From contig CH672374.1 of assembly GCA_000153385.1 (NCBI GenBank), positions 1,304,544 through 1,368,543 on the forward strand: DNA of 64,000 nucleotides, written 5' to 3'. The position numbers and the translations under genes were made by a program. Shown piece by piece: positions 2,259 through 61,416 of the stretch (positions are counted from its first letter, which is position 1; each line of letters opens with the position of its first letter). Origin of the DNA: Flavobacteria bacterium BBFL7 (lineage in GTDB: Bacteria; Bacteroidota; Bacteroidia; Flavobacteriales; Flavobacteriaceae). The notes under the pieces were generated by a model. The model saw only the letters and a list, made by a program, of their open reading frames with translations, was not told where the DNA came from and did no database searches.

Positions 2259-2268
2259 TTTCGCGAAA
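2259..2268. repeat. Palindromic repeat core TTTCGCGAAA (intergenic)
   Basis: An exact 10-bp core with GC on the right side only, between the pirin start and the histidine kinase stop codon. Confidence 0.8.
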
Positions 2269-2279
2269 GCAAGCTAAAA

Positions 2280-3767
2280 TTAAGCAACTGGAAGATTAAA
2301 CCTAAAGCTACTGCCAGAATTCTTCTTACTCATTACAGTAATTGTAGATTGGTGTAAATCAAGAATTTTTTTAACTATAGCTAATCCTAATCCTGCACCA
2401 TTTTTTGCAAAGCTCTCACTAGATTGCTTAAAACGTTCAAAAATACTAGATTGCATTTCAGGTGCGATTCCTATTCCAGAATCATTCACTTTAACAATGC
2501 ATTGGTCACCAGACTTTTCTAACTCCAACTCTATTAACCCATTGTCCGGAGTAAATTTTAGGGCATTATCAATTAAGTTTTGTAGAGCTCGCTCAATAAG
2601 ACTTATGTCTGCATACACTAGAATATTTTCATTATTCCTTACCGCTATACTTAGATTAATGCTTTTCTTTTTGGCCAGTATATCGTACTTAGAAACTAAA
2701 TCAAGACATAAATCCGTAATTGAAAATTGTTCCATTAATGGTTCTATTTGTTTTGCTTCCAACTTAGAATACTCAAATAACTGCTCAACTAGGTTTGTAA
2801 GTTTATCACTATTTGAGCTTATCACATTTAAATATTTGTTTTTCTCTTGCTCGGTTAGGCTATTTGATTTTTCCTGTAAAGTATCTGCATATCCTTTTAA
2901 TACCGCAAGTGGAGTTCTTAAATCATGAGAAACATTTGCTATCAATTGCCTACGTAGTTCATCCACAGATTTAATCTCTTCCAGATTTTCGTTAATAGTG
3001 TCTGCCATATCGTTAAAAGTATGGGCAAAAACAGCAACATCCGTTTTTTCTGGATCTTCTATTCTCGCATTAAGATCTCCTTCCTTAAACCTACGAGCTA
3101 CTTGAGTAATCGTACGTAAGTTTTTTGTGATAAACCAGATTAAGACAAAACCTATCAATAGAGTGAAAAATGTCGTCAAAGCAATTGCTCCTAGACCAAA
3201 ACTCTTAATATACTTATTAAATATATTACTACTAGCAAGCTGATAAGCTTCTCCTGAGAGTATTATATATATGTATCCATTTCTGCCGTTATTTTCAAAA
3301 GGAGCTACAGAAAAAATTTTACGCTCTGATCGATCCCTTGGATCATCACCTAAACAAAAACCCTTATAATCAGATTCAATAAAATCAGTTATCGGTTTAG
3401 TGTCCACGAATAGAGCTGGCTCCTTTGGACTATGTTCTAAAACAACCGAATGTAAAACTTCACCATCGATGCCCAATAAATACACCTCGATACTGCGATT
3501 TACTGCCATCATATCATGCATTAAATCGCCAAACACAGCCTTATTAACGGTACCGTCTTCCATAAATGGAGAAGCATCTGCAAATTTCTCATCTATCAGA
3601 TGTTGTGCTAGTGGCGCATTAATTTCTTGTTGTGTAGCGAGATGATGTTGATTAGAAAAATAGGTCGTTACTAAAATATAACAAGCCGCCATACCTAAAA
3701 TCAATAGAGATAAGGCGAGCCATAGTTTAAAAACTAGTTTAGGGGTTAATGTAGATTGCTTACTCAT
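2280..3767 (-). CDS. Membrane sensor histidine kinase
   Basis: A 495-residue two-pass kinase. TM1 is at about 12-36, followed by an extracytoplasmic sensor of about 150 residues, TM2 at about 190-212 and a HAMP domain to about 265. The HisKA box has phospho-acceptor His281 (NVSHDLRTPL). The HATPase domain has N-box Asn397/Asn401, G1 DSGIGI (429-434) and G2 GAGLGLAI (457-464). All catalytic motifs are intact. Its start lies 2 nt after the stop of the response regulator gene at 3770, so the two form an operon with the regulator first. The signal sensed is not evident from the sequence. The divergent neighbour at 4599 encodes an envelope lipoprotein, so envelope sensing is a guess. Confidence 0.95.
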   Translation of the reverse strand: MSKQSTLTPKLVFKLWLALSLLILGMAACYILVTTYFSNQHHLATQQEINAPLAQHLIDEKFADASPFMEDGTVNKAVFGDLMHDMMAVNRSIEVYLLGIDGEVLHSVVLEHSPKEPALFVDTKPITDFIESDYKGFCLGDDPRDRSERKIFSVAPFENNGRNGYIYIILSGEAYQLASSNIFNKYIKSFGLGAIALTTFFTLLIGFVLIWFITKNLRTITQVARRFKEGDLNARIEDPEKTDVAVFAHTFNDMADTINENLEEIKSVDELRRQLIANVSHDLRTPLAVLKGYADTLQEKSNSLTEQEKNKYLNVISSNSDKLTNLVEQLFEYSKLEAKQIEPLMEQFSITDLCLDLVSKYDILAKKKSINLSIAVRNNENILVYADISLIERALQNLIDNALKFTPDNGLIELELEKSGDQCIVKVNDSGIGIAPEMQSSIFERFKQSSESFAKNGAGLGLAIVKKILDLHQSTITVMSKKNSGSSFRFNLPVA

Positions 3768-3769
3768 AG

Positions 3770-4471
3770 TTATATATCTTCATTAAATCGGTAACCTATT
3801 CCCCAAGTAGTTAATATGTAAATAGGATTACCCATGTCAGGTTCAATTTTTGCACGCAGCCTATTGATATGGGAATTCACAGTGTGCTCATATCCTGAAA
3901 AATTATATCCCCATATTACATCCAATAATTCTGACCTACTATAGCTGCGACCAGGATAATTTGCTAGCAGTATAAGAAGATCAAATTCTTTAGGAGAGAG
4001 ATCGATTTTTTTACCTTCTAAAGTCACACGACGCATTTCAACGTTAACCTTTAAATCACCAAAATCTAATTCGGCCGTTTTAGAGTCGTTAGTTTGTTGA
4101 TTTGCAGCATCACTTCTTCTCATTACTGCTTTAGCTCTTGCTTTTAATTCACGTATAGAAAAAGGCTTTGTGATATAATCATCTGCTCCTATCTCTAGAC
4201 CTAAGACTTTATCTATTTCTTCCGTCTTAGCAGTAACCATTATAATAGGTGTGTTTTTAGTCTTACGTAGTTCTCTACATACTTCTACACCATTAAGTTT
4301 AGGTATCGATAAATCTAGCAGTATCAGGTCAAAGTCTTTATGCTGTGCTTTTTCTAATGCACTTAATCCATCATTCACACTTTCCACCTCAGCATTAAGG
4401 TCTTTCATGTGTATCTCTAGTAGATCCACAATCTCTAGATCGTCCTCTACAATTAATATTTGATTTGCCAT
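3770..4471 (-). CDS. OmpR/PhoB-family response regulator
   Basis: Counted from the ATG at 4471 (MANQILIVEDD), the receiver has acidic Asp10/Asp11, phospho-acceptor Asp53 (LLDLSIP), Thr80 and Lys102. It is followed by a C-terminal winged-helix Trans_reg_C domain with the usual YEHTVNSHINRLRAKIE recognition region, 233 residues in all. An ATG at 4498 would add nine residues that do not belong to the family. It is transcribed ahead of its partner kinase and diverges from the lipoprotein gene at 4599, a possible target. Confidence 0.95.
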   Translation of the reverse strand: MANQILIVEDDLEIVDLLEIHMKDLNAEVESVNDGLSALEKAQHKDFDLILLDLSIPKLNGVEVCRELRKTKNTPIIMVTAKTEEIDKVLGLEIGADDYITKPFSIRELKARAKAVMRRSDAANQQTNDSKTAELDFGDLKVNVEMRRVTLEGKKIDLSPKEFDLLILLANYPGRSYSRSELLDVIWGYNFSGYEHTVNSHINRLRAKIEPDMGNPIYILTTWGIGYRFNEDI

Positions 4472-4598
4472 AGGATAAAAGTCCACAAAGTATATCACAA
4501 AACAATCACGTCATTGCGATAAAAGTTGATAATTACGTGACGCTAATGGGATATGATAATCATTAGTTTGTACAGTAAAATAATCAAACTTAAAAAAA

Positions 4599-5498: not shown

Positions 5499-5535
5499 AG
5501 AAATATGAAGATAACTTTGGTTGGTTAGTTTGAAG

Positions 5536-5575
5536 TACCTCACAAATCTTAAGATTCTGTGGGGTATTCCTTTTT
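5536..5575 (+). terminator. Rho-independent terminator
   Basis: TACCTCACA (5536-5544) pairs with TGTGGGGTA (5558-5566), with one G-T pair. The loop itself contains AATCTTAAGATT and can extend the stem. A T5 run follows at 5571-5575. It serves the lipoprotein gene. Confidence 0.8.
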
Positions 5576-5631
5576 AAAATAAGTAGATTCAAAAACCTGA
5601 TTAGTTTTAGACCAACATAATAAGCACTGTG

Positions 5632-7595: not shown

Positions 7596-8879
7596 TTAAG
7601 AAGCATTCTCTCTTTTCAAACTCACGTAGGGATGTTTTAAATACGCTTTCGCGAAAGCGTATCCACGAGCATATTTTATCCTAAAAGTTTCTATAGCGGC
7701 ATATCCTAGTAATGCACATCCTGCAAGCATTAGGGCTAGCGGTAATACAGAAACGGTCACATAACGGGACACATACCAGCTGGCAAAGGATCCAAAAATC
7801 ATACTCACAGCTCCTACAAATGCACTAGCACTACCAGCTCTTACAGTAAAAGGCTGTAGAGCAAGTGCTGTAACATTAGGATTTTGAAACCCGATAAATG
7901 TCATCATTAAAAATAATAAAGGATACACTACCCAAAATTCAGGCTCAAAGAAACTGATATGTCCTACTAAAAGTAAAGTGGTTACCACTAGCAAAATACT
8001 TATCGTATAAGTGATTTGAAAAGTCGTAAAACGTCTTAATAAAAATCGGTTGATCTGGCTACCAGCAATAAGACCAGCTGCATTACTACCAAAGATGATC
8101 GCAAAATCACTTTGTGCCATGTTAAAAAAGTCTAAGAATATAAACGGTGCAGCCGCTACATAACCTAGTAATGCACCTATTACAAAACCTCGAGCAGTTG
8201 AGAATAAGAAAAATGCTTTGTCCTTATAAATGGTCCAATATTCCTTTAATACAGGAACCGGATGCAAACTAGTTGCAGGGTTAGGTTTTGAACTTTCAGG
8301 AAGAATAAAAATCACATTAAATAACATTAATGCTGCAAAACCGGCTAAACCATAAAAAATCATATCCCAGTGATAGTGTTCAATGATAAATCCACCTATT
8401 GTAGGCGCTATAATAGGTGCAATTCCCATGATAAGCATTAAGGTACTCAACACCTCAGCGACCTTATCATCATCAAATAAATCTCTTACAATTGCTTTAC
8501 TGGCTACCATACCTGCACAGGCTCCTAAAGCTGTAAAAAAGCGCAAGGTTGCTAGTGAAGAAACATCCCAAGCATAGGCGCTTAAAACACTAGTGGTTAT
8601 ATATAAAATTAATCCAGCAATAAGTGGTCTACGTCTACCATACCGATCCATCAATGGACCATAAGCAAGTTGTCCTAAACCTATCCCTATAAAGTAAGTG
8701 GTTAAAGTAAAACCTATCGCGCTGGTTTCTACCTTAAAATCTCCTGCAATTTGTTTAAAAGCAGGCAAATAGGCATCTATAGAAAATGGCCCTATGGCTA
8801 TCAGCGTTCCTAACACTAATATGACACTGGTTTTTCTTCCTTTACTTACGTTTTCTTTATCTACTTGTTTTACTTTCAC
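7596..8879 (-). CDS. Bcr/CflA family multidrug efflux MFS transporter
   Basis: A twelve-helix MFS protein of 427 residues. The Bcr/CflA signature is visible in helix 1 (AIGPFSIDAYLPAF), and the loop 2-3 motif A appears as YGPLMDRYGRRRPL. Members export drugs or small metabolites by proton antiport. The start is a GTG at 8879; no better start exists before the conserved first helix. The C-terminal cytoplasmic end contains a perfect 22-bp copy of the palindromic repeat, read as YAFAKAY. A TAATTTTG promoter box lies only 4 nt before the GTG. Confidence 0.9.
   Translation of the reverse strand: MKVKQVDKENVSKGRKTSVILVLGTLIAIGPFSIDAYLPAFKQIAGDFKVETSAIGFTLTTYFIGIGLGQLAYGPLMDRYGRRRPLIAGLILYITTSVLSAYAWDVSSLATLRFFTALGACAGMVASKAIVRDLFDDDKVAEVLSTLMLIMGIAPIIAPTIGGFIIEHYHWDMIFYGLAGFAALMLFNVIFILPESSKPNPATSLHPVPVLKEYWTIYKDKAFFLFSTARGFVIGALLGYVAAAPFIFLDFFNMAQSDFAIIFGSNAAGLIAGSQINRFLLRRFTTFQITYTISILLVVTTLLLVGHISFFEPEFWVVYPLLFLMMTFIGFQNPNVTALALQPFTVRAGSASAFVGAVSMIFGSFASWYVSRYVTVSVLPLALMLAGCALLGYAAIETFRIKYARGYAFAKAYLKHPYVSLKRENAS
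7641..7662. repeat. Palindromic repeat, perfect 22-bp form (inside MFS gene)
   Basis: Core TTTCGCGAAA at 7647-7656, extended symmetrically by ATACGC and GCGTAT to a perfect 22-bp palindrome. It is read in frame as A-F-A-K-A in the MFS C-terminus. Confidence 0.9.
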
Positions 8880-8981: not shown

Positions 8982-9653
8982 ATGATGAAAAAGACCATTG
9001 CCTTTATATTATTAACTATCGCAATCTACAGTTGTAAAAACGCTGAAAAGAAGGAAGAAAAAAAGGCCCTTTCAAATACAGAACAAGTCGCTCAAGCAGC
9101 AGGATTTGATAATTGGGACGCTATAAAAGAAGTGAAATTTACCTTTTCAGTAGGTAAAATGGGACGTAATTTATATGATCGTAACTGGACCTGGAATCGC
9201 CATACTGGTGACGTCACTCTTATCGCAGCACCAGACACTGTTTATTACAATCGCCGTCAACCTATGGATTCTATACAAACCAGTGCAGACCGAGCTTTTG
9301 TAAATGACATCTACTGGTTATTACCAGAGTTTAAATTCATCACAGATAGTGGTACAAAAATCATTGAAAAGAGCAACGCTGTCGCGCCTATTTCAAAGGA
9401 CACACTTGATATGTTTACCATTGTGTATAGCAATGATGGTGGTTACACACCTGGTGATGCATATGATGTTTATTATGATAAAAAACACAATTTGCGTGAA
9501 TGGGTCTATAGACAGCAAAATGATACTACCATAGGCATGATGACCACATTTGAAAAATTTGATATCATCAACGGTATTAAAGTAGCAACAGATCATCGCA
9601 CGCCAGATCGCATGACACGCATTCATTTAACTAACATAGAGTTCAACAAATAA
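8982..9653 (+). CDS. Lipoprotein of unknown function, first gene of the kyn operon
   Basis: The ATG at 8982 (a second ATG follows at 8985) begins a type II signal peptide ending in IYSC, followed by a Lys/Glu-rich linker. The mature part of about 200 residues is soluble and beta-rich, with Trp/Tyr-rich stretches (DRNWTWNRHTGD, YDVYYDKKHN) but no catalytic motif I recognise. An upstream TTG at 8976 is less likely. Its TAA overlaps the kynU ATG (TAATG), so it is co-translated with kynureninase. Whether it takes part in tryptophan use is only suggested by position. Confidence 0.75.
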   Translation: MMKKTIAFILLTIAIYSCKNAEKKEEKKALSNTEQVAQAAGFDNWDAIKEVKFTFSVGKMGRNLYDRNWTWNRHTGDVTLIAAPDTVYYNRRQPMDSIQTSADRAFVNDIYWLLPEFKFITDSGTKIIEKSNAVAPISKDTLDMFTIVYSNDGGYTPGDAYDVYYDKKHNLREWVYRQQNDTTIGMMTTFEKFDIINGIKVATDHRTPDRMTRIHLTNIEFNK

Positions 9654-10915
9654 TGGAATTCAATACTACCAGAGATTACGCATTACAATTAGATCAAGAA
9701 GATTCTTTATCTCGCTTTCGCGAAAGCTTCCATATACCAAAACATACCGACGGAACAGACTCCATATATCTATGTGGAAATTCCTTAGGCTTACAACCTC
9801 GCCAGACCAAAACCTTTCTGAATCAAGAACTAGATGACTGGGCAAAATTAGGTGTAGAAGGACACTTTCATGCAGAGAATCCTTGGATGCCTTATCACGA
9901 GTTTCTTACAGAGACGACCGCACAAGTTGTAGGTGCAAAACCGCACGAAGTGGTGATTATGAATACGCTTACAACTAACCTTCATTTAATGATGGTCAGT
10001 TTTTACCAGCCTAAAGGCAAGCGCACTAAAATAATCATAGAGGCAGATGCTTTTCCTAGTGATCGCTATGCCGTTGCGTCCCAAGTCCAATTTCACGGAC
10101 ACGATGATAAAGAAAATATTATCGAGTGGGCACCTAGAACTGGCGAGCATACACCAAGATTAGAAGATCTAGAAACAATTCTTAAAGAACAAGGCGATGA
10201 GATTGCCTTAATTATGGTAGGTGCTGTAAACTATTATACAGGCCAGTTTTTTGACTTAAAAAAAATTACAGAGTTAGGCCATGCTGCTGGAGCCATGGTA
10301 GGTTTTGACTGTGCGCATGGTGCTGGTAACGTAGATTTGCAGTTGCACGATTCTGGAGCCGACTTTGCGGTGTGGTGTACCTATAAGTATATGAACTCAG
10401 GTCCTGGTAGTTTGGGAGGTTGTTTTGTACATGAACGTCATGCAAACAATTCAGAATTACCGAGATTCACAGGTTGGTGGGGACACAATAAAGACACACG
10501 TTTTAAAATGCGTGACGATTTTGAACCTATGCACGGTGCCGAAGGTTGGCAACTGTCCAATCCGCCTATATTAAGTATGGTAGCCATAAGAGCTAGTCTG
10601 GATTTATTTGCTCAAGCAGGTTTTGAAAATTTGAGAAAAAAATCTATCCAATTAACCAACTATCTGGAATACCTAGTAGGTGAATTAGATGGTGATCGTA
10701 TTTCTATCATTACACCTAGAGATCCTAAAGATCGCGGTTGTCAATTATCCCTAGCTGTTAAAAATGCTGACAAGTCATTATTTGACGCCATTACGGCAAA
10801 AGGAGTCATTGCAGACTGGCGCGAACCAGATGTGATACGCATAGCACCAGTTCCTCTATACAATAATTATGAAGATTGCTGGAGATTTGTGGATGTATTG
10901 AAGTCAGAGTTATAA
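9653..10915 (+). CDS. kynU: Kynureninase
   Basis: PLP enzyme that cleaves kynurenine or 3-hydroxykynurenine to anthranilate or 3-hydroxyanthranilate plus alanine. The PLP lysine is Lys245 in WCTYKYMNSGPGS and the pyridine-nitrogen aspartate is Asp219 (GFDCAHGAGN). The N-terminal CGNSLGLQPR block is typical. At 420 residues it has the normal family length. The start codon overlaps the upstream stop. The palindromic repeat is built into codons for residues 21-25 (RFRES), where the family aligns without an apparent gap. Tryptophan breakdown is the likely role, given kmo and the aldehyde dehydrogenase downstream. Confidence 0.96.
   Translation: MEFNTTRDYALQLDQEDSLSRFRESFHIPKHTDGTDSIYLCGNSLGLQPRQTKTFLNQELDDWAKLGVEGHFHAENPWMPYHEFLTETTAQVVGAKPHEVVIMNTLTTNLHLMMVSFYQPKGKRTKIIIEADAFPSDRYAVASQVQFHGHDDKENIIEWAPRTGEHTPRLEDLETILKEQGDEIALIMVGAVNYYTGQFFDLKKITELGHAAGAMVGFDCAHGAGNVDLQLHDSGADFAVWCTYKYMNSGPGSLGGCFVHERHANNSELPRFTGWWGHNKDTRFKMRDDFEPMHGAEGWQLSNPPILSMVAIRASLDLFAQAGFENLRKKSIQLTNYLEYLVGELDGDRISIITPRDPKDRGCQLSLAVKNADKSLFDAITAKGVIADWREPDVIRIAPVPLYNNYEDCWRFVDVLKSEL
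9716..9725. repeat. Palindromic repeat core (inside kynU)
   Basis: A complete 14-mer GCTTTCGCGAAAGC, read as R-F-R-E-S in kynureninase. Confidence 0.9.
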
Positions 10916-11030: not shown

Positions 11031-12425
11031 ATGAAAACAACTAACAAAAAAACAAATATCCTTATCACTGGCGCTGGACTTTGCGGTTCTCTTTTGGGAC
11101 TGCGACTGGCACAACGAGGCTATCACGTAGATATATTAGAAAAACGACCAGACATGCGCAAAGCCATTGTAGATGGTGGACGTTCCATTAACTTGGCACT
11201 TTCTGATCGTGGATTGGCTGGTTTAAAACTAGTAGGTCTAGAAGAAAAAGTACGTGAGTTGTGCATTCCTATGCATGGCCGATTAATACATGATGTAGAA
11301 GGAAACACATTTGCTTCTAACTATAGTGGTCGTGAAGGTGAATACATCAATTCTATCTCAAGAGAAGAACTCAACAAGCTCTTGCTCGATGAAGCCGATA
11401 AGTACGAAGATGTTCAAATAGACTTTGATGATGCAGTGACTGCCGTAGATTTAAAAAACGCCTCGGTTACTTATCACGATTCTGAAACCGATACCGAGAA
11501 AGAATGGAAAGCAGATATCGTTCTAGGAACTGACGGCGCAGGATCTGTAGTACGCAAGGCGATGATGAAACAGCGAGACTTTTTGTTTTCGCATAGTATG
11601 AACTGGTTACCGCACGGTTATAAAGAATTGAACATTCCGCCTACAGAAGATGGGAAATGGCGTATCGAGAAAAATTTCTTGCACATATGGCCACGTGGTG
11701 GTTTTATGTTGATTGCTTTACCTAATCTGGATGGTAGTTTCACGCTTACTTTGTTCATGCAATACGACGGCGATGGACCAGCATTCAACAAGATTAAAAC
11801 TGACCAAGAAATCACCGATTTCTTCACGACTTATTTTAAAGATGTGATGGAACACATTCCAGATTTGATAGAGCAATACCATACAAATCCAGCTCCGCCA
11901 TTAGGAACAGTGCGTTGTTCACCATGGACGGCTTATGGAACTAGTTTGATTATGGGTGATGCCGCTCACGCCATTGTACCTTTTTATGGTCAAGGAATGA
12001 ATGCGAGTTTTGAAGACGTAGTCGTTTTTGACGAGATTTTAGACCAACACGAGAATTGGTCAGATGCCTTCACCGCATTCTCCACCACAAGAAAACCAGA
12101 TGCTGATGCTATCGCAAATTTGGCTTTGGACAATTTTGTAGAGATGAGAGACAGCGTGGCAAATCCTAACTTCCAGTTGAAAAGGCAAATCGAAATGCGT
12201 TTAGAAGCAGCTTTCGCGAAAGCGGAATACCAATCTAAATACTCACTCGTAACTTTCCCTGAAGAAGGAATAAGCTATAGAGAGGCCATGCTGCGTGGAC
12301 GAGCGCAAGACAAAGCGATTTTATGGTTGCTAGAAAACGACCAAATAAAAGTAGACGACGATATAAACGATTTATTAAAATCCATCCAGCAAAAGACCGA
12401 AGAGGTGTTGTGGCTGCGAGGATAA
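11031..12425 (+). CDS. kmo: Kynurenine 3-monooxygenase
   Basis: FAD-dependent aromatic hydroxylase that converts kynurenine to 3-hydroxykynurenine with NADPH and O2. The N-terminal dinucleotide fold is GAGLCG (residues 14-19) followed by the acidic strand end LEKRPD. The kmo-type block GGRSINLALSDRG is present, as is the second FAD motif GDAAHAIVPFYGQGMNASFED. The 464-residue length is typical. The palindrome encodes AAFAKAE near the C-terminal third. It follows kynU in the same orientation after a REP-like hairpin, so the operon probably continues but may be attenuated there. Confidence 0.96.
   Translation: MKTTNKKTNILITGAGLCGSLLGLRLAQRGYHVDILEKRPDMRKAIVDGGRSINLALSDRGLAGLKLVGLEEKVRELCIPMHGRLIHDVEGNTFASNYSGREGEYINSISREELNKLLLDEADKYEDVQIDFDDAVTAVDLKNASVTYHDSETDTEKEWKADIVLGTDGAGSVVRKAMMKQRDFLFSHSMNWLPHGYKELNIPPTEDGKWRIEKNFLHIWPRGGFMLIALPNLDGSFTLTLFMQYDGDGPAFNKIKTDQEITDFFTTYFKDVMEHIPDLIEQYHTNPAPPLGTVRCSPWTAYGTSLIMGDAAHAIVPFYGQGMNASFEDVVVFDEILDQHENWSDAFTAFSTTRKPDADAIANLALDNFVEMRDSVANPNFQLKRQIEMRLEAAFAKAEYQSKYSLVTFPEEGISYREAMLRGRAQDKAILWLLENDQIKVDDDINDLLKSIQQKTEEVLWLRG
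12212..12221. repeat. Palindromic repeat core (inside kmo)
   Basis: A complete 14-mer read as A-F-A-K-A in the kynurenine monooxygenase. Confidence 0.9.
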
Positions 12426-12845: not shown

Positions 12846-12985
12846 GTTTAAACCTAAGAATAAGTTTAAATTGAATAATTTTTATAAGCTGTAAAGCGCA
12901 AATAAACTATAGAGAACAGTGGTAAGGGCGAAATTAATTCCGTCCAAAACAGATGACGAATCCGCCCAAACCAAACCAAAAGAAC

Positions 12986-14431
12986 ATGGACATAAAAAAC
13001 TTTATCAATAACAATGAGCACATCCCACTTAGTGGATTGTGGCTCGATAATTATGAACCAGCAAGCGGTCTCGTTTATGGACAGATTCCTAATTCTAACG
13101 AAGATGATGTCGAGAAAGCTTATCAAGCGGCAAACGCTGCTTTTAAAGATTGGTCCACTACCAGTATTGATGAACGTTCCAGAATCATGTTGCGCATCGC
13201 AGACCTTATTGAAGAAAATCTAGAAGAACTTGCCGCAGCAGAATCTCGTGATAATGGAAAACCATTATGGCTTGCTACCGCTGTAGATATACCGCGCGCG
13301 TCCTCTAACTTCCGTTTTTATGGAAACGCGATTACTCAATATTCTAGTGATGCTCATGAAACAACAGGTAAAAACACGATGAATTTTACTATGCGCAAAC
13401 CTATAGGCGTAGTAGGATGTATCTCGCCTTGGAATTTGCCTCTGTATTTGTTCAGCTGGAAAATTGCTCCAGCGATTGCAGCAGGAAATTGTGTCGTGGC
13501 AAAACCTAGCGAAGTCACTCCAGCAACCGCATTTTTACTCGGAGAAATCGTTAAAAAAGCAGGATTACCGGCTGGTGTCCTAAATATAGTGCACGGTTTA
13601 GGTGGCAGTTGTGGTCAGGCGATTGTAGCTCATCCAGGCATTAAAGCTATTAGTTTTACGGGTGGTACGACCACTGGCGAGCACATCGCTAGAACGGCAG
13701 CGCCTATGTTTAAAAAATTATCGCTGGAACTAGGTGGCAAGAATCCTAACATCATTTTTGCCGACTGTAATTATGATAAAATGCTCACCACTACCTTACG
13801 ATCTTCCTTTGCAAATCAAGGGCAGATCTGTTTGTGTGGTAGTAGAATCCTTGTAGAGCAATCACTTTATGAGAAATTTAAAACAGACTTTGTCGCTCGC
13901 GTGCAACAACTCAAGGTAGGTCATCCTAATCAGTCAGATACTAAAGTAGGTGCTGTGGTAAGTGCTGCTCATAGAGATAAAATATTAGATTATATCGCTT
14001 TCGCGAAAGCGAATCCCAAAGAATACACCATACTTTCTGGTGGAAATTCGGTTCTTATTGAAGGTCACGAAGGCGGCTATTATCTAGAACCTACAGTCAT
14101 AGAAGTCCAATCCAATGATTGTAAATTGAACCAAGAAGAAATCTTCGGGCCAGTAGTAACCATCATACCGTTTAAAGATGAAGCACAAGCGCTAGAACTC
14201 GCAAATGGAACACGCTACGGATTAAGCGCTACGTTATGGACCAGCGATTTGAGCCGTACCATGAGAATGAGCAACGAGCTAGAAGCAGGAATAGTTTGGG
14301 TAAACACCTGGTTAAATCGTGATTTGCGCACACCTTTTGGTGGTGTAAAAGACAGCGGTGTAGGACGTGAAGGCGGATTTGAAGCCTTGAATTTCTTTAC
14401 AGAGCCTAAGAATGTTTGTATTGAGTATTAG
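12986..14431 (+). CDS. Aldehyde dehydrogenase, 2-aminomuconic semialdehyde dehydrogenase-like
   Basis: NAD-dependent ALDH of about 481 residues. From the ATG at 12986, the key residues are Asn150 (SPWNLP), Glu248 (LELGGKN) and nucleophile Cys282 (NQGQIC). The LCGSRI block after the nucleophile resembles the ALDH8/AmnC group that oxidises 2-aminomuconate-6-semialdehyde. An upstream in-frame ATG at 12953 adds an unrelated segment. It ends the kynurenine operon. The palindrome is read as IAFAKAN at about residue 340. Confidence 0.88.
   Translation: MDIKNFINNNEHIPLSGLWLDNYEPASGLVYGQIPNSNEDDVEKAYQAANAAFKDWSTTSIDERSRIMLRIADLIEENLEELAAAESRDNGKPLWLATAVDIPRASSNFRFYGNAITQYSSDAHETTGKNTMNFTMRKPIGVVGCISPWNLPLYLFSWKIAPAIAAGNCVVAKPSEVTPATAFLLGEIVKKAGLPAGVLNIVHGLGGSCGQAIVAHPGIKAISFTGGTTTGEHIARTAAPMFKKLSLELGGKNPNIIFADCNYDKMLTTTLRSSFANQGQICLCGSRILVEQSLYEKFKTDFVARVQQLKVGHPNQSDTKVGAVVSAAHRDKILDYIAFAKANPKEYTILSGGNSVLIEGHEGGYYLEPTVIEVQSNDCKLNQEEIFGPVVTIIPFKDEAQALELANGTRYGLSATLWTSDLSRTMRMSNELEAGIVWVNTWLNRDLRTPFGGVKDSGVGREGGFEALNFFTEPKNVCIEY
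13999..14008. repeat. Palindromic repeat core (inside aldehyde dehydrogenase)
   Basis: A complete 14-mer, with flanking symmetry CGC/GCG, read as A-F-A-K-A. Confidence 0.9.
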
Positions 14432-17093: not shown

Positions 17094-18608
17094 TTGAACA
17101 AGAAAACGATATTAATGATTCTCGATGGATGGGGAATCACGCAAGACCCAAAAGTTAGCGCCATCGCTCAAGCACAGACTCCTTTTATAGATAGTCTATA
17201 TGATCAATATCCACATGCGACATTGCGTACAGATGGCGAGCACGTTGGATTACCAGAAGGGCAAATGGGAAATAGTGAAGTAGGCCACATGAATCTAGGT
17301 GCTGGCCGTATTGTCTATCAAGATCTAGCCAAAATCAATAAAGCTATTAAAGAAGATACGCTTAAAGATGAGCAGGTTCTTGTTGATGCACTCGCTTTCG
17401 CGAAAGCGAATTCCAAAAAAGTTCACTTCTTAGGGTTATTATCTGATGGTGGAGTTCATGCGCATATAGACCATTTAAAAGCACTATTAGATGTAGCTGA
17501 AAGTCATGAAATAGAAGATGTTTTTATACATGCCTTTACTGATGGACGTGATGTAGACCCAAAGTCTGGCGCAAGTCATGTTGCAAATCTAGAAAAGCAT
17601 ATCTCTGGAACTAATGCACAACTGGCAACTGTTACTGGACGCTATTTTGCAATGGATAGAGATCAACGCTGGGAACGTGTTAAAAAAGCCTATGATGTAA
17701 TCGTTCATGGAATGGGACAACCATCGCATGATGCTACTGATTCTATAAAAGAATTTTATAACCAAGGTGTTACTGATGAGTTTATAGAACCTATCGTGGT
17801 TCTTAATGGAACAGAACCAGTAGCTACTGTTGAAGATGGTGATGTTATCATATTCTTTAACTATCGTACGGATCGTGGTCGTGAGTTAACTCAAATGTTA
17901 TCACAGCAAGACTATCACGAGCAAAATACTCATGCGTTAGATTTATATTATGTAACCATGACAAAGTATGATGATAGCTACAATAATGTAAAAGTCATCT
18001 TTGAAAAAGATAATCTCAAAAACACTTTAGGTGAAGTATTAGCTGATGCTGGTAAAACTCAAATACGTATTGCCGAAACTGAGAAATATCCACACGTGAC
18101 TTTCTTTTTTAATGGTGGTCAAGAAAAACCATTTAAAGGAGAGCAAAGAATTATGTGTAACTCTCCTAAAGTAGCAACCTATGACTTGCAACCAGAAATG
18201 TCCATCGATTGTGTTTCAAGTAGTATTATACCTGAAATTAACAGACAGGTTGCAGATTTTATATGTCTTAATTTTGCAAATCCTGATATGGTAGGCCATA
18301 CAGGCTCTATGGAGGCTGCAGTAAAGGCATGTGAAGCTGTTGATCAAGCAGCACATGATGTTATAACAGCTGCAATGGAACAAGATTACACGATTATTGT
18401 TATTGCTGATCATGGAAATTGCGAGGTAATGCTAAATCCTGATGGATCAGTAAATACTGCACACACGACCAATCCGGTACCTATTATTTTAGTAGATAAA
18501 GATTTAAAAGAAGTTAAAGACGGCATCTTGGGTGATATAGCTCCTACTATATTAAAGTTAATAGGTGTTAAACAACCTGAAGAAATGACTCAAAATTCGT
18601 TACTTTAA
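17094..18608 (+). CDS. gpmI: Cofactor-independent phosphoglycerate mutase
   Basis: Converts 3-phosphoglycerate to 2-phosphoglycerate in glycolysis without bisphosphoglycerate. The alkaline-phosphatase-like core starts with metal-binding Asp11 (LDGWG) and nucleophile Ser61 (MGNSEVGHMNLGAGR). The C-terminal metal blocks NFANPDMVGHTG and VIADHGNCE are intact. At 504 residues the length is normal. The start is a TTG at 17094, because the next ATG lies inside the conserved first strand. The palindrome is read as ALAFAKAN (about residues 98-105), where the family aligns without an obvious gap. Confidence 0.96.
   Translation: MNKKTILMILDGWGITQDPKVSAIAQAQTPFIDSLYDQYPHATLRTDGEHVGLPEGQMGNSEVGHMNLGAGRIVYQDLAKINKAIKEDTLKDEQVLVDALAFAKANSKKVHFLGLLSDGGVHAHIDHLKALLDVAESHEIEDVFIHAFTDGRDVDPKSGASHVANLEKHISGTNAQLATVTGRYFAMDRDQRWERVKKAYDVIVHGMGQPSHDATDSIKEFYNQGVTDEFIEPIVVLNGTEPVATVEDGDVIIFFNYRTDRGRELTQMLSQQDYHEQNTHALDLYYVTMTKYDDSYNNVKVIFEKDNLKNTLGEVLADAGKTQIRIAETEKYPHVTFFFNGGQEKPFKGEQRIMCNSPKVATYDLQPEMSIDCVSSSIIPEINRQVADFICLNFANPDMVGHTGSMEAAVKACEAVDQAAHDVITAAMEQDYTIIVIADHGNCEVMLNPDGSVNTAHTTNPVPIILVDKDLKEVKDGILGDIAPTILKLIGVKQPEEMTQNSLL
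17396..17405. repeat. Palindromic repeat core (inside gpmI)
   Basis: A complete 14-mer with flanking CGC/GCG, read as A-F-A-K-A in GpmI. Confidence 0.9.
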
Positions 18609-20572: not shown

Positions 20573-21346
20573 ATGAAAAAACTCTTCAAATTCTTCCTCA
20601 ACCTTATCCCAAGGCCATGGCTCATCAGCTTAAGTTATTGGGTGCGTCCACTAATGGCGTGGTGGTATCGTGGTGATCAATATACAGACCCTATAGATGG
20701 GAAATCTTTTAAGAGCTTTTTACCTTATGGCTACGGAACCGTGAGAGAAAATGTCCTTTCTCCTTCTACTCTATCTCTCGAGCGTCACCGTTTACTTTGG
20801 TTGTACCTCAATAGAGAAACAGATTTACTTACTCACCCACAATCGCTATTGCATTTTGCACCAGAACAATGTTTTTATAAACGCTTCCGCGAAAGCGAAA
20901 CTATTAACTACACGACTACAGATTTACTTTCTCCACTGGCAGATGTTAAGGCAGATATTTGTAACCTCCCGTTTGAAGATAACAGTTATGATTTTATATT
21001 ATGTAATCATGTCTTAGAACATATTCCTGATGATGAGACTGCAATGAAAGAATTGTATCGTGTCTTAAAACCTGGTGGAAAAGCCATTTTACAAATTCCG
21101 TTAGAAAATGACCGAGACGTAACCTTTGAAGATGATTCTATAACTGATAAAGAAGAGCGCGCTAGGATTTTTGGCCAGTATGACCATGTGCGAGTTTATG
21201 GAATGGATTATTTTGACCGTTTAAAATCTATTGGATTTCAAGTGGATGCCGTGGATTACACAGCACATCTGTCTGCAAATGAAGTAGATAAATACAGACT
21301 AGCACAAGGAGAATTAATCCCTGTTGTGACTAAATCTGTGGTTTAA
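20573..21346 (+). CDS. Class I SAM-dependent methyltransferase
   Basis: A Methyltransf_11-type domain occupies the C-terminal two thirds of 257 residues. The post-I acidic residue is in TTTDLLSP, motif II/III is NSYDFILCNHVLEHIPDD and the LKPGGKAILQIP block follows. The usual glycine-rich motif I is poor (LLHFAPEQ). The N-terminus (about 1-40) is basic and amphipathic. Substrate is unknown. A variant of the palindrome (one base changed) encodes RFRES just after motif I. The 3' end overlaps the convergent apbE by 17 bp. Confidence 0.82.
   Translation: MKKLFKFFLNLIPRPWLISLSYWVRPLMAWWYRGDQYTDPIDGKSFKSFLPYGYGTVRENVLSPSTLSLERHRLLWLYLNRETDLLTHPQSLLHFAPEQCFYKRFRESETINYTTTDLLSPLADVKADICNLPFEDNSYDFILCNHVLEHIPDDETAMKELYRVLKPGGKAILQIPLENDRDVTFEDDSITDKEERARIFGQYDHVRVYGMDYFDRLKSIGFQVDAVDYTAHLSANEVDKYRLAQGELIPVVTKSVV
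20885..20894. repeat. Palindromic repeat, one-base variant TTCCGCGAAA
   Basis: The left arm carries one substitution, T to C, within an otherwise complete CGCTTCCGCGAAAGCG. It is read as R-F-R-E-S in the methyltransferase. Confidence 0.75.
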
Positions 21347-30320: not shown

Positions 30321-30342
30321 TTACGCTTTCGCGAAAGCGTAA
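30321..30342. repeat. Palindromic repeat, perfect 22-bp form (between nqrD and nqrE)
   Basis: Core at 30327-30336, extended by TTACGC and GCGTAA to a perfect 22-bp palindrome in the only sizeable gap (47 nt) of the nqr operon. It can form an intra-operon RNA hairpin. Confidence 0.92.
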
Positions 30343-34415: not shown

Positions 34416-34495
34416 CGCGATAATGCGCAGATTATTGGACGCTGATTTTATTTAGAATAATTCTTAATAGAATAACTCCGTAAGTTTGGCATCGC

Positions 34496-34505
34496 TTTCG
34501 CGAAA
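34496..34505. repeat. Palindromic repeat core (intergenic, nqrA / T9SS plug)
   Basis: Exact core, with one mismatch in the outer arm (GCTTTCGCGAAAGT). It sits between the divergent nqrA and plug genes. Confidence 0.8.
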
Positions 34506-34557
34506 GTATTAACAACATACACAATAAACCTTATATTTATCACGTATTTAACCATCT

Positions 34558-37377: not shown

Positions 37378-37389
37378 TTCTACTTCCGC

Positions 37390-37399
37390 TTTCGCGAAA
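37390..37399. repeat. Palindromic repeat core (intergenic, apaG / pruA)
   Basis: A complete 14-mer 12 nt after the apaG stop codon. Confidence 0.9.
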
Positions 37400-37511
37400 G
37401 CGTCTTTAAACATACCTCTTTCTAGATTAAGAATTCTTTAGGCTATAATAGGTTTATAAAACAAGCTATTATTTGTAATTTCACGCCCGAATTAAAAAAT
37501 AAAATCACATC

Positions 37512-42703: not shown

Positions 42704-43345
42704 TTAAAGTGGAAGGTGAACTACTTTTTTAGTCTCAAAAAATTCTTCCTCAAAATAATCTGGTAACTCATAAATGTAAACTTCAGGAAATGGCTTTAAC
42801 TCTTCGGTTAAATCACCACCTTTAAGATATAGAATTCCATTTTCAATCTCGTGATAACTGTCTTTTCTGATTTTATTGCGAGTCCAGCTTACAAAGTCAG
42901 GCATATTTGTAACGGCACGACTTACTATAAAATCAAACTTACCCTTTACTTTCTCGGCTCTACCATGTTGTGTAGTAACATTTTTTAATTGTAAAGCTTC
43001 TACAACAGTATCTACAACTTTAATCTTCTTCCCGATAGCGTCTATAAGGTGGAAATTTGTTTTAGGAAACATAATAGCAAGAGGTATACCTGGAAAACCT
43101 CCACCAGTTCCTACATCCATTACTCTAGCACCACCTGGCGTGTTAGGCAAGCTTTCGCGAAAGCGTACTACACAAGCTATACCAAGTGAATGAAGTACAT
43201 GTCTAGTATACAATTGATCGATATCTTTTCTAGAGATCACATTAATCTGCGAGTTCCATTCTGCATACAAATCACCTAACTGGGCAAATTGCTCCATTTG
43301 ATGATCTGATAAATGTGGAAAGTAATTTTTTATAATTTGATGCAC
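42704..43345 (-). CDS. rsmG: 16S rRNA (guanine-N7) methyltransferase G
   Basis: RsmG/GidB methylates G527 of 16S rRNA. The SAM motif VMDVGTGGGFPGIPLAI and the N-terminal WNSQINVISRKD and HVLHSLG blocks are diagnostic. I place the start at a GTG at 43345 (MHQIIKNYFPHL); an upstream TTG at 43363 is part of the TATTTTTG promoter box. The palindrome encodes RFRES between HSLGIA and the SAM motif. There, the segment FRESLPNTPGGA seems some 6-7 residues longer than in most homologues, from memory. Confidence 0.93.
   Translation of the reverse strand: MHQIIKNYFPHLSDHQMEQFAQLGDLYAEWNSQINVISRKDIDQLYTRHVLHSLGIACVVRFRESLPNTPGGARVMDVGTGGGFPGIPLAIMFPKTNFHLIDAIGKKIKVVDTVVEALQLKNVTTQHGRAEKVKGKFDFIVSRAVTNMPDFVSWTRNKIRKDSYHEIENGILYLKGGDLTEELKPFPEVYIYELPDYFEEEFFETKKVVHLPL
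43153..43162. repeat. Palindromic repeat core (inside rsmG)
   Basis: A complete 14-mer, read as R-F-R-E-S in a local loop just before the SAM motif. Confidence 0.9.
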
Positions 43346-43360
43346 TGTCAATATTTTGTG

Positions 43361-43368
43361 CAAAAATA
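43361..43368 (-). promoter_or_regulatory. -7 box of rsmG
   Basis: TATTTTTG on the minus strand. A start near 43354 leaves a leader of about 9 nt before the GTG at 43345. Confidence 0.5.
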
Positions 43369-48180: not shown

Positions 48181-48222
48181 TGAGATAAGACAATTTTTAG
48201 CACGGTGTTGTTAATATTTTGC

Positions 48223-48232
48223 TTTCGCGAAA
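48223..48232. repeat. Palindromic repeat core (intergenic, trkA / ubiE)
   Basis: A complete 14-mer between the two divergent promoters. Confidence 0.9.
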
Positions 48233-48263
48233 GCGTAATTACACAAACCTCACTGCTCTACCT

Positions 48264-53092: not shown

Positions 53093-54160
53093 ATGAGTCA
53101 TAATATAAAACCAGGAGTTGCTACAGGTAACCAAGTACAAGAAATTTTTAACCATGCCAAAGCTAATGGTTATGCCTTACCAGCCGTTAATGTGGTAGGA
53201 TCTAACACAGTTAACGCTGTTATGGAAACAGCTGCAGAGTTAAATTCACCAGTGATTATACAGTACTCAAATGGAGGAAGTGTTTTTAACGCTGGAAAAG
53301 GACTTAACAATGATGGCCATCGCGCTGCTATACTAGGTGGTATTGCTGGTGCAGAGCACGTACACAGACTTGCAGAAGCTTATGGTGCTACCGTAATCCT
53401 ACATACAGATCACTGTGCCAAGAAATTACTTCCTTGGATCGATGGACTATTAGATGCTAGTGAAGCACGCTTTCGCGAAAGCGGTAAATCACTATACTCT
53501 TCTCACATGATTGACCTTAGTGAAGAACCACTTGAAGAAAATATTGAAATTTGTAAAAGATATCTAGAACGCATGTCTAAAATGGACATGACTCTAGAAA
53601 TAGAATTAGGTATTACCGGTGGTGAAGAAGATGGTGTCGATAATAGTGATGTTGATGAATCAAAATTATACACTCAACCAGAAGAGGTAGCATATGCTTA
53701 TGAAGAGCTTAAGAAAGTAAGTGACCGCTTCACAATTGCAGCAGCATTTGGAAATGTACACGGTGTATATAAACCTGGTAATGTAAAATTAACTCCTAAG
53801 ATTTTAAAGAACTCTCAAGAGTATATTACTCAAAAATATGGCGTTGAACACAACCACATTGATTTTGTATTTCACGGTGGATCAGGTTCTACACTAGAAG
53901 AAATTAGAGAAGCAATAGGTTACGGTGTTGTAAAAATGAACATCGACACCGATTTACAATGGGCATTTGCTACAGGTGTAAAAGGATACATGGACACTAA
54001 CAATGATTATCTATTATCACAAATAGGGAATCCAACTGGTGCAGACGCTCCAAATAAAAAATATTATGATCCACGCAAATGGTTACGCGTAGGTGAAGAA
54101 AGTTTTAAAGCTCGCTTAAAAGCAGCCTTTGAAGACTTAAACAACATCAACACATTATAG
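53093..54160 (+). CDS. fbaA: Class II fructose-bisphosphate aldolase
   Basis: Zinc-dependent glycolytic aldolase, 355 residues, of the E. coli FbaA type. The zinc ligands and catalytic residues are visible in ILHTDHCAKKLLPWIDGLLD, LEIELGITGGEEDGVDNS, FGNVHGVYKPGNVKL and DFVFHGGSGS. The palindrome encodes ARFRESGK in the loop before SSHMIDLSEE. It aligns one-for-one with EKHFAATGK in E. coli, so no extra residues are added. A terminator follows. Confidence 0.97.
   Translation: MSHNIKPGVATGNQVQEIFNHAKANGYALPAVNVVGSNTVNAVMETAAELNSPVIIQYSNGGSVFNAGKGLNNDGHRAAILGGIAGAEHVHRLAEAYGATVILHTDHCAKKLLPWIDGLLDASEARFRESGKSLYSSHMIDLSEEPLEENIEICKRYLERMSKMDMTLEIELGITGGEEDGVDNSDVDESKLYTQPEEVAYAYEELKKVSDRFTIAAAFGNVHGVYKPGNVKLTPKILKNSQEYITQKYGVEHNHIDFVFHGGSGSTLEEIREAIGYGVVKMNIDTDLQWAFATGVKGYMDTNNDYLLSQIGNPTGADAPNKKYYDPRKWLRVGEESFKARLKAAFEDLNNINTL
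53471..53480. repeat. Palindromic repeat core (inside fbaA)
   Basis: A complete 14-mer, read as R-F-R-E-S at a surface loop of the aldolase. Confidence 0.92.
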
Positions 54161-55183: not shown

Positions 55184-55261
55184 CAGCCACTTTAAGAAAA
55201 AGTCTTATCGTGAAGTCAGATCATCTGACGTACATAATATTCATTATAAAATAATTTTGGC

Positions 55262-55531
55262 ATGTATTTAGCTCCAGAAAAAAAAGCAGAGATTTTCGCA
55301 AAGTACGGAAAAGACGCAAACGACACAGGTAACACTGATGCGCAAATCGCATTATTCACTTACCGTATTAACTATTTAACAGGACACCTTAAAAACAACC
55401 GTCACGACTACAATACAGAGCGTAGTCTAGTGAAACTGGTAGGTAAAAGACGTTCTCTTCTTGATTACAAAATGAAGAAAGATATCGTTGCTTATCGTGA
55501 GTTGATTAAGGACTTAGGTATTAGAAAGTAA
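55262..55531 (+). CDS. rpsO: 30S ribosomal protein S15
   Basis: An 89-residue S15 with the family blocks TGNTDAQIALFTYRINYLTGHLKNNRHDYNTERSLVKLVGKRRSLLDY. It binds 16S rRNA h20-h22. It is followed by a strong terminator and then pnp, the rpsO-pnp order known in many bacteria. Confidence 0.97.
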   Translation: MYLAPEKKAEIFAKYGKDANDTGNTDAQIALFTYRINYLTGHLKNNRHDYNTERSLVKLVGKRRSLLDYKMKKDIVAYRELIKDLGIRK

Positions 55532-55560: not shown

Positions 55561-55596
55561 ATTTTATATAAATAGGAGAGCTTATCTCTATTCCGC

Positions 55597-55606
55597 TTTC
55601 GCGAAA
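55597..55606. repeat. Palindromic repeat core (intergenic, rpsO / pnp)
   Basis: A complete 14-mer about 100 nt before the pnp start. Confidence 0.9.
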
Positions 55607-55706
55607 GCAGAATTAAAACAAATCATCGCGACATTACAAAAGCTGGTTTCTCACAAAGTAAACGCCTTCTCTACTCACAACTTGAGATTAACGTTTAACT
55701 ATATTT

Positions 55707-58012: not shown

Positions 58013-58027
58013 AAAAAAATAGTAATA

Positions 58028-59223: not shown

Positions 59224-59231
59224 TAAATTTG
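59224..59231 (+). promoter_or_regulatory. -7 box of rpe
   Basis: TAAATTTG, 21 nt before the ATG at 59253. Confidence 0.55.
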
Positions 59232-59252
59232 CAAAACCTTAAAACACACAAG

Positions 59253-59918: not shown

Positions 59919-59953
59919 AGTAATGATATCGACTAACATCGACTTATATATTA

Positions 59954-60937
59954 ATGGATAGCAAAATCATTTATGATGTTATAATTATAGGTGCTGGTCC
60001 TATAGGTTTAGCCTGTGGACTAGAGGCACAAAAAGCTGGTTTACGCTATCTTATTATAGAAAAGGGCGCACTGGTAAACTCGCTATATCATTATCCAGTA
60101 AACATGAATTTTTTCTCGACTAGTGAAAAGCTGGAAATTGATGAAGTTCCGTTTATATCCAAAGAGTCCAAACCTAGTAAACAAGAATCGTTAGAATATT
60201 ATCGTCGTATAGCAACATCTAAAAAGCTAGAGATACGCCTTTATGAAAAAGTAATGGCTGTTACTAAAGACGTAGAGTTTAAGATCAAGACCTCAAAAGA
60301 TGAATATCTAAGCAAGCATATCATCATCGCAACTGGCTTTTATGACATCCCAGTAAAATTAAATATACCTGGAGAAGACCTAGATAAATTAAACCATTAT
60401 TACCACGATCCACACGCATATGCGTTTTTAGAAACAGTAGTTATAGGTGCCAGTAACAGTGCAGTAGATGCCGCATTAGAAATTTACAGAAAAGGAGGAA
60501 AAGTCACCATGATTGTACGTGGAGATCAGATAGGTGATCGAGTTAAATATTGGGTGCGCCCAGATATTATTAACCGTATTGAGGAAGGCAGTATTAAAGC
60601 ACATTTTAATGCAGCACTTACACGTATTGATGAAACCACTGTTACCTTTACAAAAGATGGAGAAACTCATACAATTGCAAACGATCAAGTACTAGCCCTT
60701 ACCGGTTACCAACCTAACTTTGAGTTTTTAAAATCCATGGGGATACAGCTTTCTGGACCTCATAAAATTCCAGTATATGATTCCCATACTATGGAAACTA
60801 ATGTAAAAGGTATTTATCTAGCTGGTGTTATATGCGGTGGACTGGAGACTCATAAATGGTTTATAGAGAACAGTCGCGTGCATGCACCGCAGATTATAAG
60901 CTCTATAGTACAGAGAGATAAGAAGACATCAGTTTAA
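59954..60937 (+). CDS. ypdA: YpdA-like FAD/NAD(P) disulfide reductase
   Basis: A 327-residue thioredoxin-reductase-like flavoprotein without a CxxC site. FAD fold GAGPIGLACG (about 13-22), NADPH fold VIGASNSAVDAALEIYRKGGKVTMIVRG and the C-terminal LTGYQPNFEFL and GIYLAGVICGG blocks suit the YpdA family (bacillithiol disulfide reductase in Firmicutes). Many Bacteroidota also have bacillithiol-like genes, but no bsh genes are in this window. It overlaps the convergent DUF1801 gene by 4 bp. Confidence 0.85.
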   Translation: MDSKIIYDVIIIGAGPIGLACGLEAQKAGLRYLIIEKGALVNSLYHYPVNMNFFSTSEKLEIDEVPFISKESKPSKQESLEYYRRIATSKKLEIRLYEKVMAVTKDVEFKIKTSKDEYLSKHIIIATGFYDIPVKLNIPGEDLDKLNHYYHDPHAYAFLETVVIGASNSAVDAALEIYRKGGKVTMIVRGDQIGDRVKYWVRPDIINRIEEGSIKAHFNAALTRIDETTVTFTKDGETHTIANDQVLALTGYQPNFEFLKSMGIQLSGPHKIPVYDSHTMETNVKGIYLAGVICGGLETHKWFIENSRVHAPQIISSIVQRDKKTSV

Positions 60938-61344
60938 GGATAACGTTCTTTATTAATTATTATACTTTCTTTCAAAACAACTCTTAGTTTATCTTCACTG
61001 ATATCGCTCAATTTATTGATATAAATGCATGATTTACCAAGTTTCACTTTGCCTAAATCGGCCTTTTTCTTATCGAGCTGCTCATTATAAGCCGTTGCAT
61101 AGATGCTTATATTTTTAGATCTAGGAGCAAAACCTATAATAAAAAAATCGCCTTCTCTACCTGTTTCGTATTTATAATGATAGGTTCCTACACCTATCAT
61201 ATCACCCCACATTCTAGCTTTTTCTCCCATTACATCTTCCATGATTTCCAATAATCGTAAACAGTCCTGACGTTTCTGTTGAGGTTCTATAGTGTTTAAA
61301 TAAGTAACTACTGGTTCATTGTTAGGTTGCGTTTTATTAACCAT
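60934..61344 (-). CDS. DUF1801 domain protein
   Basis: About 136 residues from the ATG at 61344. The YdhG-like DUF1801 fold is indicated by GEKARMWGDMIGVGTYHYKYETGREGDFFIIGFAPRSKNISIYA and LGKVKLGKSCIYINKLSDI. Function is unknown. ATGs upstream (61365) would add residues without family support. It ends inside the ypdA stop region. Confidence 0.85.
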   Translation of the reverse strand: MVNKTQPNNEPVVTYLNTIEPQQKRQDCLRLLEIMEDVMGEKARMWGDMIGVGTYHYKYETGREGDFFIIGFAPRSKNISIYATAYNEQLDKKKADLGKVKLGKSCIYINKLSDISEDKLRVVLKESIIINKERYP

Positions 61345-61406
61345 AATATCAGATTTTTTATTCAAAAAGCTTTATTAAGATATTGCTTTACCTTAAATAT
61401 AAACGC

Positions 61407-61416
61407 TTTCGCGAAA
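61407..61416. repeat. Palindromic repeat core (intergenic, DUF1801 / polyferredoxin)
   Basis: A complete 14-mer with flanking CGC/GCG, 18 nt downstream of the Fe-S protein stop codon. Confidence 0.9.

Follow-up and report, generated by a model that had tools for sequence, protein, structure and literature searches.

A regularly spaced palindromic word with strand-polar flanks in Nonlabens genomes and its possible role as a mark of self DNA

Words repeated over a whole bacterial genome, such as HIP1 and the DNA uptake sequences, pose the old questions of what maintains them and what reads them. HIP1 (GCGATCGC) is a short, clade-specific palindrome abundant in the coding and non-coding DNA of cyanobacteria, and the Chi sites known so far are short sequences without symmetry. 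The uptake sequences of Neisseriaceae (DNA uptake sequences, DUS) and Pasteurellaceae (uptake signal sequences, USS) are described in PMC1939737 as significantly even in their spacing, for which Karlin et al. are cited, and as not palindromic. Here we analysed a window, that is, the whole stretch of 64,000 nucleotides from contig CH672374.1 of Flavobacteria bacterium BBFL7 (positions 1,304,544 to 1,368,543), in which the 14-mer GCTTTCGCGAAAGC is repeated. The extended unit, referred to here as the word, is the 16-mer CGCTTTCGCGAAAGCG, a perfect palindrome. The polynucleotide phosphorylase (PNPase) of this bacterium has its nearest matches, at 97%, in Nonlabens ulvanivorans and in a second Nonlabens record, and its genus is therefore taken to be Nonlabens, of the Flavobacteriaceae.

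Like HIP1, the word is a clade-specific palindrome found throughout the genome, in genes and between them, far more often than expected. Compared with HIP1 it is longer (16 bp) and sparser and has polar flanks that extend about 40 bp to each side; its spacing is over-regular. With the uptake sequences it shares the hundreds of copies, the even spacing, the location in and between genes and the restriction to a clade, but those are non-palindromic and the Nonlabens word is a perfect palindrome. A preliminary description of the window had named HIP1, uptake sequences and nucleoid protein sites as candidates; all are fair ones and none is proved. The word is abundant and symmetric, has compositionally skewed flanks, is regularly spaced and strongly constrained, and its distribution is patchy and extends to mobile DNA. 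A mark for uptake or exchange of DNA is the function that we consider most likely, although tentatively, and an anchor of the chromosome is nearly as likely.

The genome (3,103,424 bases in 7 contigs, 3.10 Mb) contains 551 exact 14-mers and 0 copies of the control, the word read backwards. A 464-kb sample of it held 84 14-mers, against 0.0003–0.0013 expected under Markov models of orders 0–4, and 89 copies of the 10-mer core TTTCGCGAAA, against 0.18–0.75. Order 5 gave higher expectations (0.37 14-mers and 15.8 10-mers) because its 6-mers derive largely from the word itself. TTCGCGAA occurs 89 times in this sample, always within TTTCGCGAAA (89/89) and in 84 cases within the full word. In the 64-kb window, 17 cores with at most one mismatch were counted, while dinucleotide shuffles averaged 2.47 and never exceeded 6. 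The abundance is thus far above the Markov expectation, as the preliminary description had supposed. A G was found just outside the 14-mer at 148 of the 168 half-sites (84 sites of the sample), and for this reason the 16-mer was taken as the unit; the core and the 14-mer of that description are real, and the true unit is the 16-mer with long flanks.

The word is genome-wide and not tied to any one gene, as had been proposed from the window. Although non-coding DNA, by open reading frames (ORFs) of at least 100 aa, makes up only 9.4% of the 464-kb sample, 33 of the 84 sites are intergenic, with the neighbouring ORFs co-directional in 23, divergent in 6 and convergent in 4. The other 51 copies lie within ORFs and use all three frames (28, 13, and 10). 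An intrinsic terminator was rejected, given the A of 0.49 and T of 0.24 at outward positions 10–20 and the 4/33 intergenic sites that are convergent.

Every one of the 23 Nonlabens genomes carries between 288 and 857 copies, so the enrichment in sister species that a genome-wide word should show is present. Of 299 Flavobacteriaceae genomes, sampled evenly from a larger group, the word is present in 61, and most have none or few copies. Outside Nonlabens, only two genomes exceed 19 copies, G211 (408) and G227 (857). No more than one copy was seen in any of 220 genomes from the rest of the phylum, some of which have one copy of the reversed control. A Dokdonia record is also word-rich, with four words in 22 kb, and the 71 other non-Nonlabens comparison loci have none. 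By the PNPase tree, this record stands in a supported clade with genera of word-free loci and not beside Nonlabens. Other palindromes of at least 12 bp repeated three times were not found in the word-free comparison loci; a palindromic 10-mer was present three times in 7 word-free loci, against 3/69 shuffled loci.

The palindromic, highly iterated nature of the word and the CpG in its core could also be explained if it were, like HIP1, associated with a DNA methyltransferase recognising an inner sequence such as TCGCGA. HIP1 has been linked to methyltransferases in PMC4390886, which makes no mention of Bacteroidetes, Flavobacter or Nonlabens. However, TCGCGA is not raised outside the word: 89 of its 132 occurrences in 464 kb lie in the 10-mer core, and the remaining 43 compare with 33–47 expected (Markov orders 0–3; the order-4 expectation, 109, includes the word's own 5-mers). 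In addition, a 16-bp site with 40-bp flanks far exceeds the length of a methylase site, and this explanation seems to us distinctly improbable.

The word is the centre of a symmetric element of approximately 80 bp, with a zone of about 30–40 bp at each side in which the strand reading outward is poor in G. In the own genome no G was found at position 11 (0/168), and G mostly regains background by 40–60 bp from the dyad, slightly later at intergenic sites. Over outward positions 11–40, G was 0.10–0.11 and C 0.21–0.26 in the own genome (114 sites), G001 (139), G003 (41), and G227 (75), and the flanks of G211 were weaker (G 0.20, C 0.26; 46 sites). The skew was alike at coding and intergenic sites (own genome, G001 and G227), whereas the control motifs GAAAGC (n = 791) and CGAAAGC (n = 67) outside words showed no G depletion (G 0.19 and 0.18, respectively). 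Left and right arms agree at position 9 in 39/84 sites and at position 10 in 32/84, so that there is little dyad symmetry beyond the 16-mer. Non-coding divergence from G003, the nearest relative found, was 0.20 at 8–20 bp and 0.16 at 20–40 bp from the dyad, against 0.10–0.15 from 40 bp to 5 kb, and third-codon divergence at 8–20 bp was 0.23, only slightly low. The composition of the flanks is conserved and their sequence is not. Since the outward strand is G-poor, both strands ending 3' at the dyad are T/G-rich, and the polar flanks indicate a strand-directed action beginning at the dyad. The composition is also modulated at 9–11.5 bp (A 0.77, C 0.43, G 0.43, T 0.76); random arms gave means of 0.13–0.16, with 0/200 sets reaching the observed value for each base. 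Without positions 11–20, the result for A drops to 4/200 random sets.

Constraint was evaluated against G003, which showed 82–92% identity over most of the 196 kb aligned, a few short pieces being lower. Among 42 aligned sites, 29 are exact in both genomes, 7 only in G003 and 6 only in the own genome. Within 8 bp of the dyad, third codon positions diverge by 0.7% (n = 150), against 29–35% beyond 40 bp, and non-coding positions by 4.1% (n = 270), against 10–17% outside, with own sites picked as being within one mismatch of the word and those of G003 not so picked. The discordant sites differ by one or two bases in place in 12 of 13 cases, one of them (G003 block position 227553) with poorly aligned flanks. 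At the remaining site, 45 additional bases interrupt the G003 copy exactly at its dyad (L392:547, opposite the own word at joined position 68853). No other copy of this insert was found in the stretches examined, and it may be an insertion element with a preference for the dyad. A perfect 16-bp dyad constrained in and between genes points to recognition of double-stranded DNA by a symmetric protein.

The preliminary description considered the spacing irregular, but the intervals are in fact more regular than random. For the 99 successive intervals of contig 1 (mean 5.2 kb), the coefficient of variation (CV) was 0.58, against 0.99 for random placement (sd 0.10; 0/20000), and only 1/99 was shorter than 1 kb, where 17 would be expected. 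Scanning 400 kb with a matrix yielded 71 exact and 23 weaker words, two shuffles giving 0 and 1 at the threshold; the matrix was derived from the own words, so the weak sites share flanks by construction. The median distance of these 23 to the closest exact word is 3135 bp, while random positions gave 1454 bp (0/20000), and adding them lowered the CV to 0.48, against 0.68 if randomly placed. Most of 18 variants with one or two mismatches, found without use of the flanks, also lie by eye in gaps longer than the mean. Even spacing together with weak sites in mid-gap suggests that a word within a few kb is what matters.

Other contiguous blocks gave CVs of 0.63 (own C2; 7/5000), 0.47 (G003; 0/5000), and 0.68 (G227; 0/5000), and that of G211, 0.81, was borderline (412/5000). 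The CV of G001 was 0.92 and not significant (4913/20000), becoming 0.57 (0/20000) once four gaps longer than 15 kb were dropped; with all gaps kept, 5 intervals were shorter than 1 kb, against 18 expected. These gaps between exact words measure 16, 16, 20, and 30 kb. Two of them have a GC of 0.35–0.37 and carry an SbcC-like ATPase and a relaxase, and the other two have a GC of 0.39–0.42. The SbcC/RAD50-like protein (1133 aa; L269:4389-7790), in a low-GC gap, may belong to a defence locus, a guess from its domain only. Fifteen stretches of 20 kb of the G001 chromosome contained 2–8 words each (index of dispersion 0.41), and the sparsest (2 words) has a GC of 0.361, against 0.407–0.426 in the other 14, as an island would show. 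No gradient of density between origin and terminus was apparent by eye in these stretches (origin inferred from parS at 2.61 Mb), nor any sign of the terminus depletion or restriction of macrodomain-type sites (SlmA, Noc, MatP). A local duplication history was rejected, with 551 copies in the own genome and 2–8 words per 20 kb around the sister chromosome.

Hundreds of near-identical copies could also have arisen from a dispersed repeat spread by copying, of the repetitive extragenic palindrome or miniature inverted-repeat transposable element type. However, the flanks are alike in composition and not in sequence, gain and loss are point changes in place at 12 of the 13 discordant sites, the ORF copies (51/84) are found in all three frames and the spacing is regular, which leaves this origin hardly credible.

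In the low-copy genomes the words are clustered. The 16 words of G097 are all confined to 78 kb; the adjoining 30 kb on the left and 32 kb on the right are free of them, and a large serine recombinase is encoded 4 kb beyond the last one. Genes for RND/OEP efflux, a P-type ATPase, a methyltransferase and Fic are found in this island or others like it. G307, with two islands and a lone word, and G072 resemble G097, while the nine copies of G165 are mostly scattered. The word thus travels on mobile DNA. Word-bearing metal-efflux islands are common to several genera (L372-L376, from G097:C3 32-115 kb; L089-L104; L378-L379), and a pair of words 933 bp apart recurs among them. In two loci (L092:3266 and L091:6432) the word lies 14 codons into an outer-membrane efflux ORF and reads AFAKAQ, by its position at the would-be cleavage site of a signal peptide.

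IMG/VR contigs encoding portal, head, terminase or tape-measure proteins or a transposase (phrog_310) have one to three words per piece, as in L234 (words at 191, 6705, and 11185), and their word density is at or below that of the host. Two isolated Nonlabens phages without an annotated integrase (71 kb) had no word within two mismatches. In a pattern scan of viral sequences covering at least 120 stretches, 75/133 sites among the matches listed were in contigs of GC at least 0.48 and lacked the flank skew; these are chance or unrelated sites.

In the window, all 15 exact cores reported in the preliminary description were recovered at the positions given there, 13 of them within the full 14-mer, as were its two one-mismatch copies (20885 and 24887) and its 7/15 intergenic sites, by the predicted ORFs of the window. 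The sites, none of which has a strand, are the following (14-mer coordinates):

2257..2270: variant ATTTTCGCGAAAGC with exact 10-mer core, intergenic
7645..7658: exact word within ORF 7596-8879 (minus strand), reads AFAKA
9714..9727: exact word within kynureninase ORF 9653-10915 (plus strand), reads FRES
12210..12223: exact word within ORF 11031-12425 (plus strand), AFAKA
13997..14010: exact word within ORF 12953-14431 (plus strand), AFAKA
17394..17407: exact word within ORF 17094-18608 (plus strand), AFAKA
20883..20896: one-base variant GCTTCCGCGAAAGC in ORF 20573-21346 (plus strand), synonymous in frame, FRES
23326..23339: exact word within GH92 ORF 22836-25754 (plus strand), FRES
24885..24898: one-base variant GCTTCCGCGAAAGC within the same GH92 ORF 22836-25754 (plus strand) as the preceding site, ASAKA
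30325..30338: exact word, intergenic
34494..34507: variant GCTTTCGCGAAAGT with exact 10-mer core, intergenic
37388..37401: exact word, intergenic
43151..43164: exact word within ORF 42704-43363 (minus strand), FRES
48221..48234: exact word, intergenic
53469..53482: exact word within ORF 53093-54160 (plus strand), FRES
55595..55608: exact word, intergenic, flanked by the S15-leader match and pnp
61405..61418: exact word, intergenic

Eight Nonlabens loci were compared with the window. The word at 48221 is intact in all four that align at that place (L010, L012, L013, and L015), with flanks diverged in three, that at 53469 in all five aligning (L010, L011, L012, L013, and L015) and that at 55595 in all six (L010 and L012-L016). 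In a Dokdonia record (L068), a word precedes the pnp match by 191 bp. Near the word at 55595, upstream of pnp, an Rfam match to the S15 leader (55209-55318) scored 41.2 bits, and the start of a 16S rRNA gene (1-489, minus strand) runs off the window edge.

Several of these features could equally be expected if a dimeric nucleoid protein bound the word, wrapped or bent about 80 bp and pinned the chromosome every 4–5 kb, the words acting as anchors of loops or topological domains. The perfect 16-bp dyad, the over-regular spacing with its scarcity of intervals under 1 kb, the modulation of all four bases at 9–11.5 bp, the even spread around the G001 chromosome and the strong constraint at single sites agree with this. 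However, wrapping would not lead one to expect the polarity seen in the G-poor outward strand, G001 tolerates gaps of up to 30 kb between exact words, and most of the sampled genera of the family manage without the word. Anchoring fits the dyad and the spacing only, and we hold it to be a real possibility, slightly behind uptake or exchange.

The parS and Noc-type sites resemble the word in being palindromes of similar length with GAAA in the half-site. In Nonlabens, unlike the word, parS is represented by a separate canonical core, and there is no general second ParB. With the parS pattern that we take to be the canonical one, one or two copies were found in each of the 10 Nonlabens genomes tested, and parS was rejected as an identity for a word with 551 sites everywhere. 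Hits to the ParB domain are one per genome in 9/11 Nonlabens, including G000, G002 having three and G006 two, the extra ones in proteins of 602–616 aa. A single ParB in most genomes and a separate parS argue that a Noc-like copy of ParB is not the reader in general. Two parS cores lie approximately 1.9 kb apart in G000 (C2:1839373 and 1841265); a similar pair was seen in 8/10 Nonlabens and a single core in the other two, and an exact core was absent from 21 of the 22 other genomes of the family tested.

Alternatively, the word could be a Chi-like mark that halts an AddAB-like helicase-nuclease, the palindrome being effective in either direction of approach and the T/G-rich 3' strand aiding the loading of RecA, which prefers T/G-rich DNA. 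The word and E. coli Chi are both over-represented at about one per 4.5 kb (the mean interval of Chi in the 200 kb examined), the 3'-ended strand is T/G-rich, phages carry the word, and the own AddB-like protein was matched in 30/30 genomes searched. However, Chi of E. coli K-12 is an asymmetric site of 8 nt, randomly spaced (CV 1.02, 200 kb) and without flank skew, and the word is a perfect palindrome and not an oriented octamer-like site, with block CVs of 0.47–0.81 and strong skew in own C2, G003 and G227, although not in G211. Moreover, in five other Nonlabens the AddB-like protein shares no more than 46–52% identity with the own one, while the word is invariant, and those of G211 and G227 (38–39%) are no closer than those of word-free or low-copy genera (34–42%). 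The names AddA-like and AddB-like rest on Pfam domains and on NCBIfam matches below the curated cut-offs. No sign of exchange of the AddB-like protein between the word-rich genera was seen in its tree, weak evidence from a tree unresolved at the fork, and RecBCD was rejected (RecC family PF04257 in 0/48). Chi-like stopping fits the polarity and the density but not the regularity, and we consider it unlikely.

Uptake or recombination of self DNA fits the dyad, the spacing and the polar flanks alike. We favour, with reserve, the reading in which the word works like a DNA uptake sequence, marking self DNA, and is read by a putative protein binding double-stranded DNA; that this protein is dimeric and that the process is DNA exchange is what we infer. 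In the simplest case a homodimer would read CGAAAGCG twice. The word would label the chromosome as self about once every 4–5 kb, and fragments bearing it would be preferred during DNA uptake or in the processing for recombination. Such a drive would create and keep words wherever no other lies within one fragment length; the outcome would be evenly spaced words, half-made ones in the middle of gaps and copies carried by the mobile elements of these hosts. Entry as single-stranded DNA, or another strand-specific process, would give T/G-rich strands ending 3' at the dyad. Gains and losses by point mutation in place, the spacing, the even spread over one sister chromosome, the constraint, the polarity and the words on mobile DNA count for this reading. 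According to PMC7965970, Riemerella columbina, which that paper assigns to the same family, has natural competence and a preference for DNA of its own; A-rich k-mers and no such word are reported there.

Other observations weigh against an uptake function. PF00482, the platform protein of type IV pili and type II secretion systems and the one family tested, was found in only 2/11 Nonlabens, not in G000, and in neither of the two other word-rich genera (G211 and G227). Its absence from most of the word-rich genomes tested and the palindromic core speak against a classic uptake sequence. A narrow literature search found nothing linking Nonlabens, Dokdonia and natural competence, and third-codon divergence showed no clear trend with distance from the word, in a pair with G003 too diverged for a good test. 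The reader protein was not found in this analysis. In the open-access literature, represented mostly by titles and the starts of abstracts, no such word in Flavobacteriaceae and no experiment on a reader appeared, and a search with the sequence letters returned no paper with the 14-mer.

To our knowledge, this would be the first palindromic word for uptake or exchange, and one with control of spacing on the scale of the chromosome. It is conceivable, although somewhat doubtful, that it represents a self-DNA marking system new to Bacteroidota, with an outward, strand-specific machine, spread by drive and adopted by phages and integrative elements. The word is longer, symmetric, regular and polar-flanked, and relatives within the family are without it, so that a comparison of genomes with and without the word and a capture of its reader are directly feasible in these marine bacteria. 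For these bacteria, the word is a fingerprint of the DNA that has passed through them as hosts.

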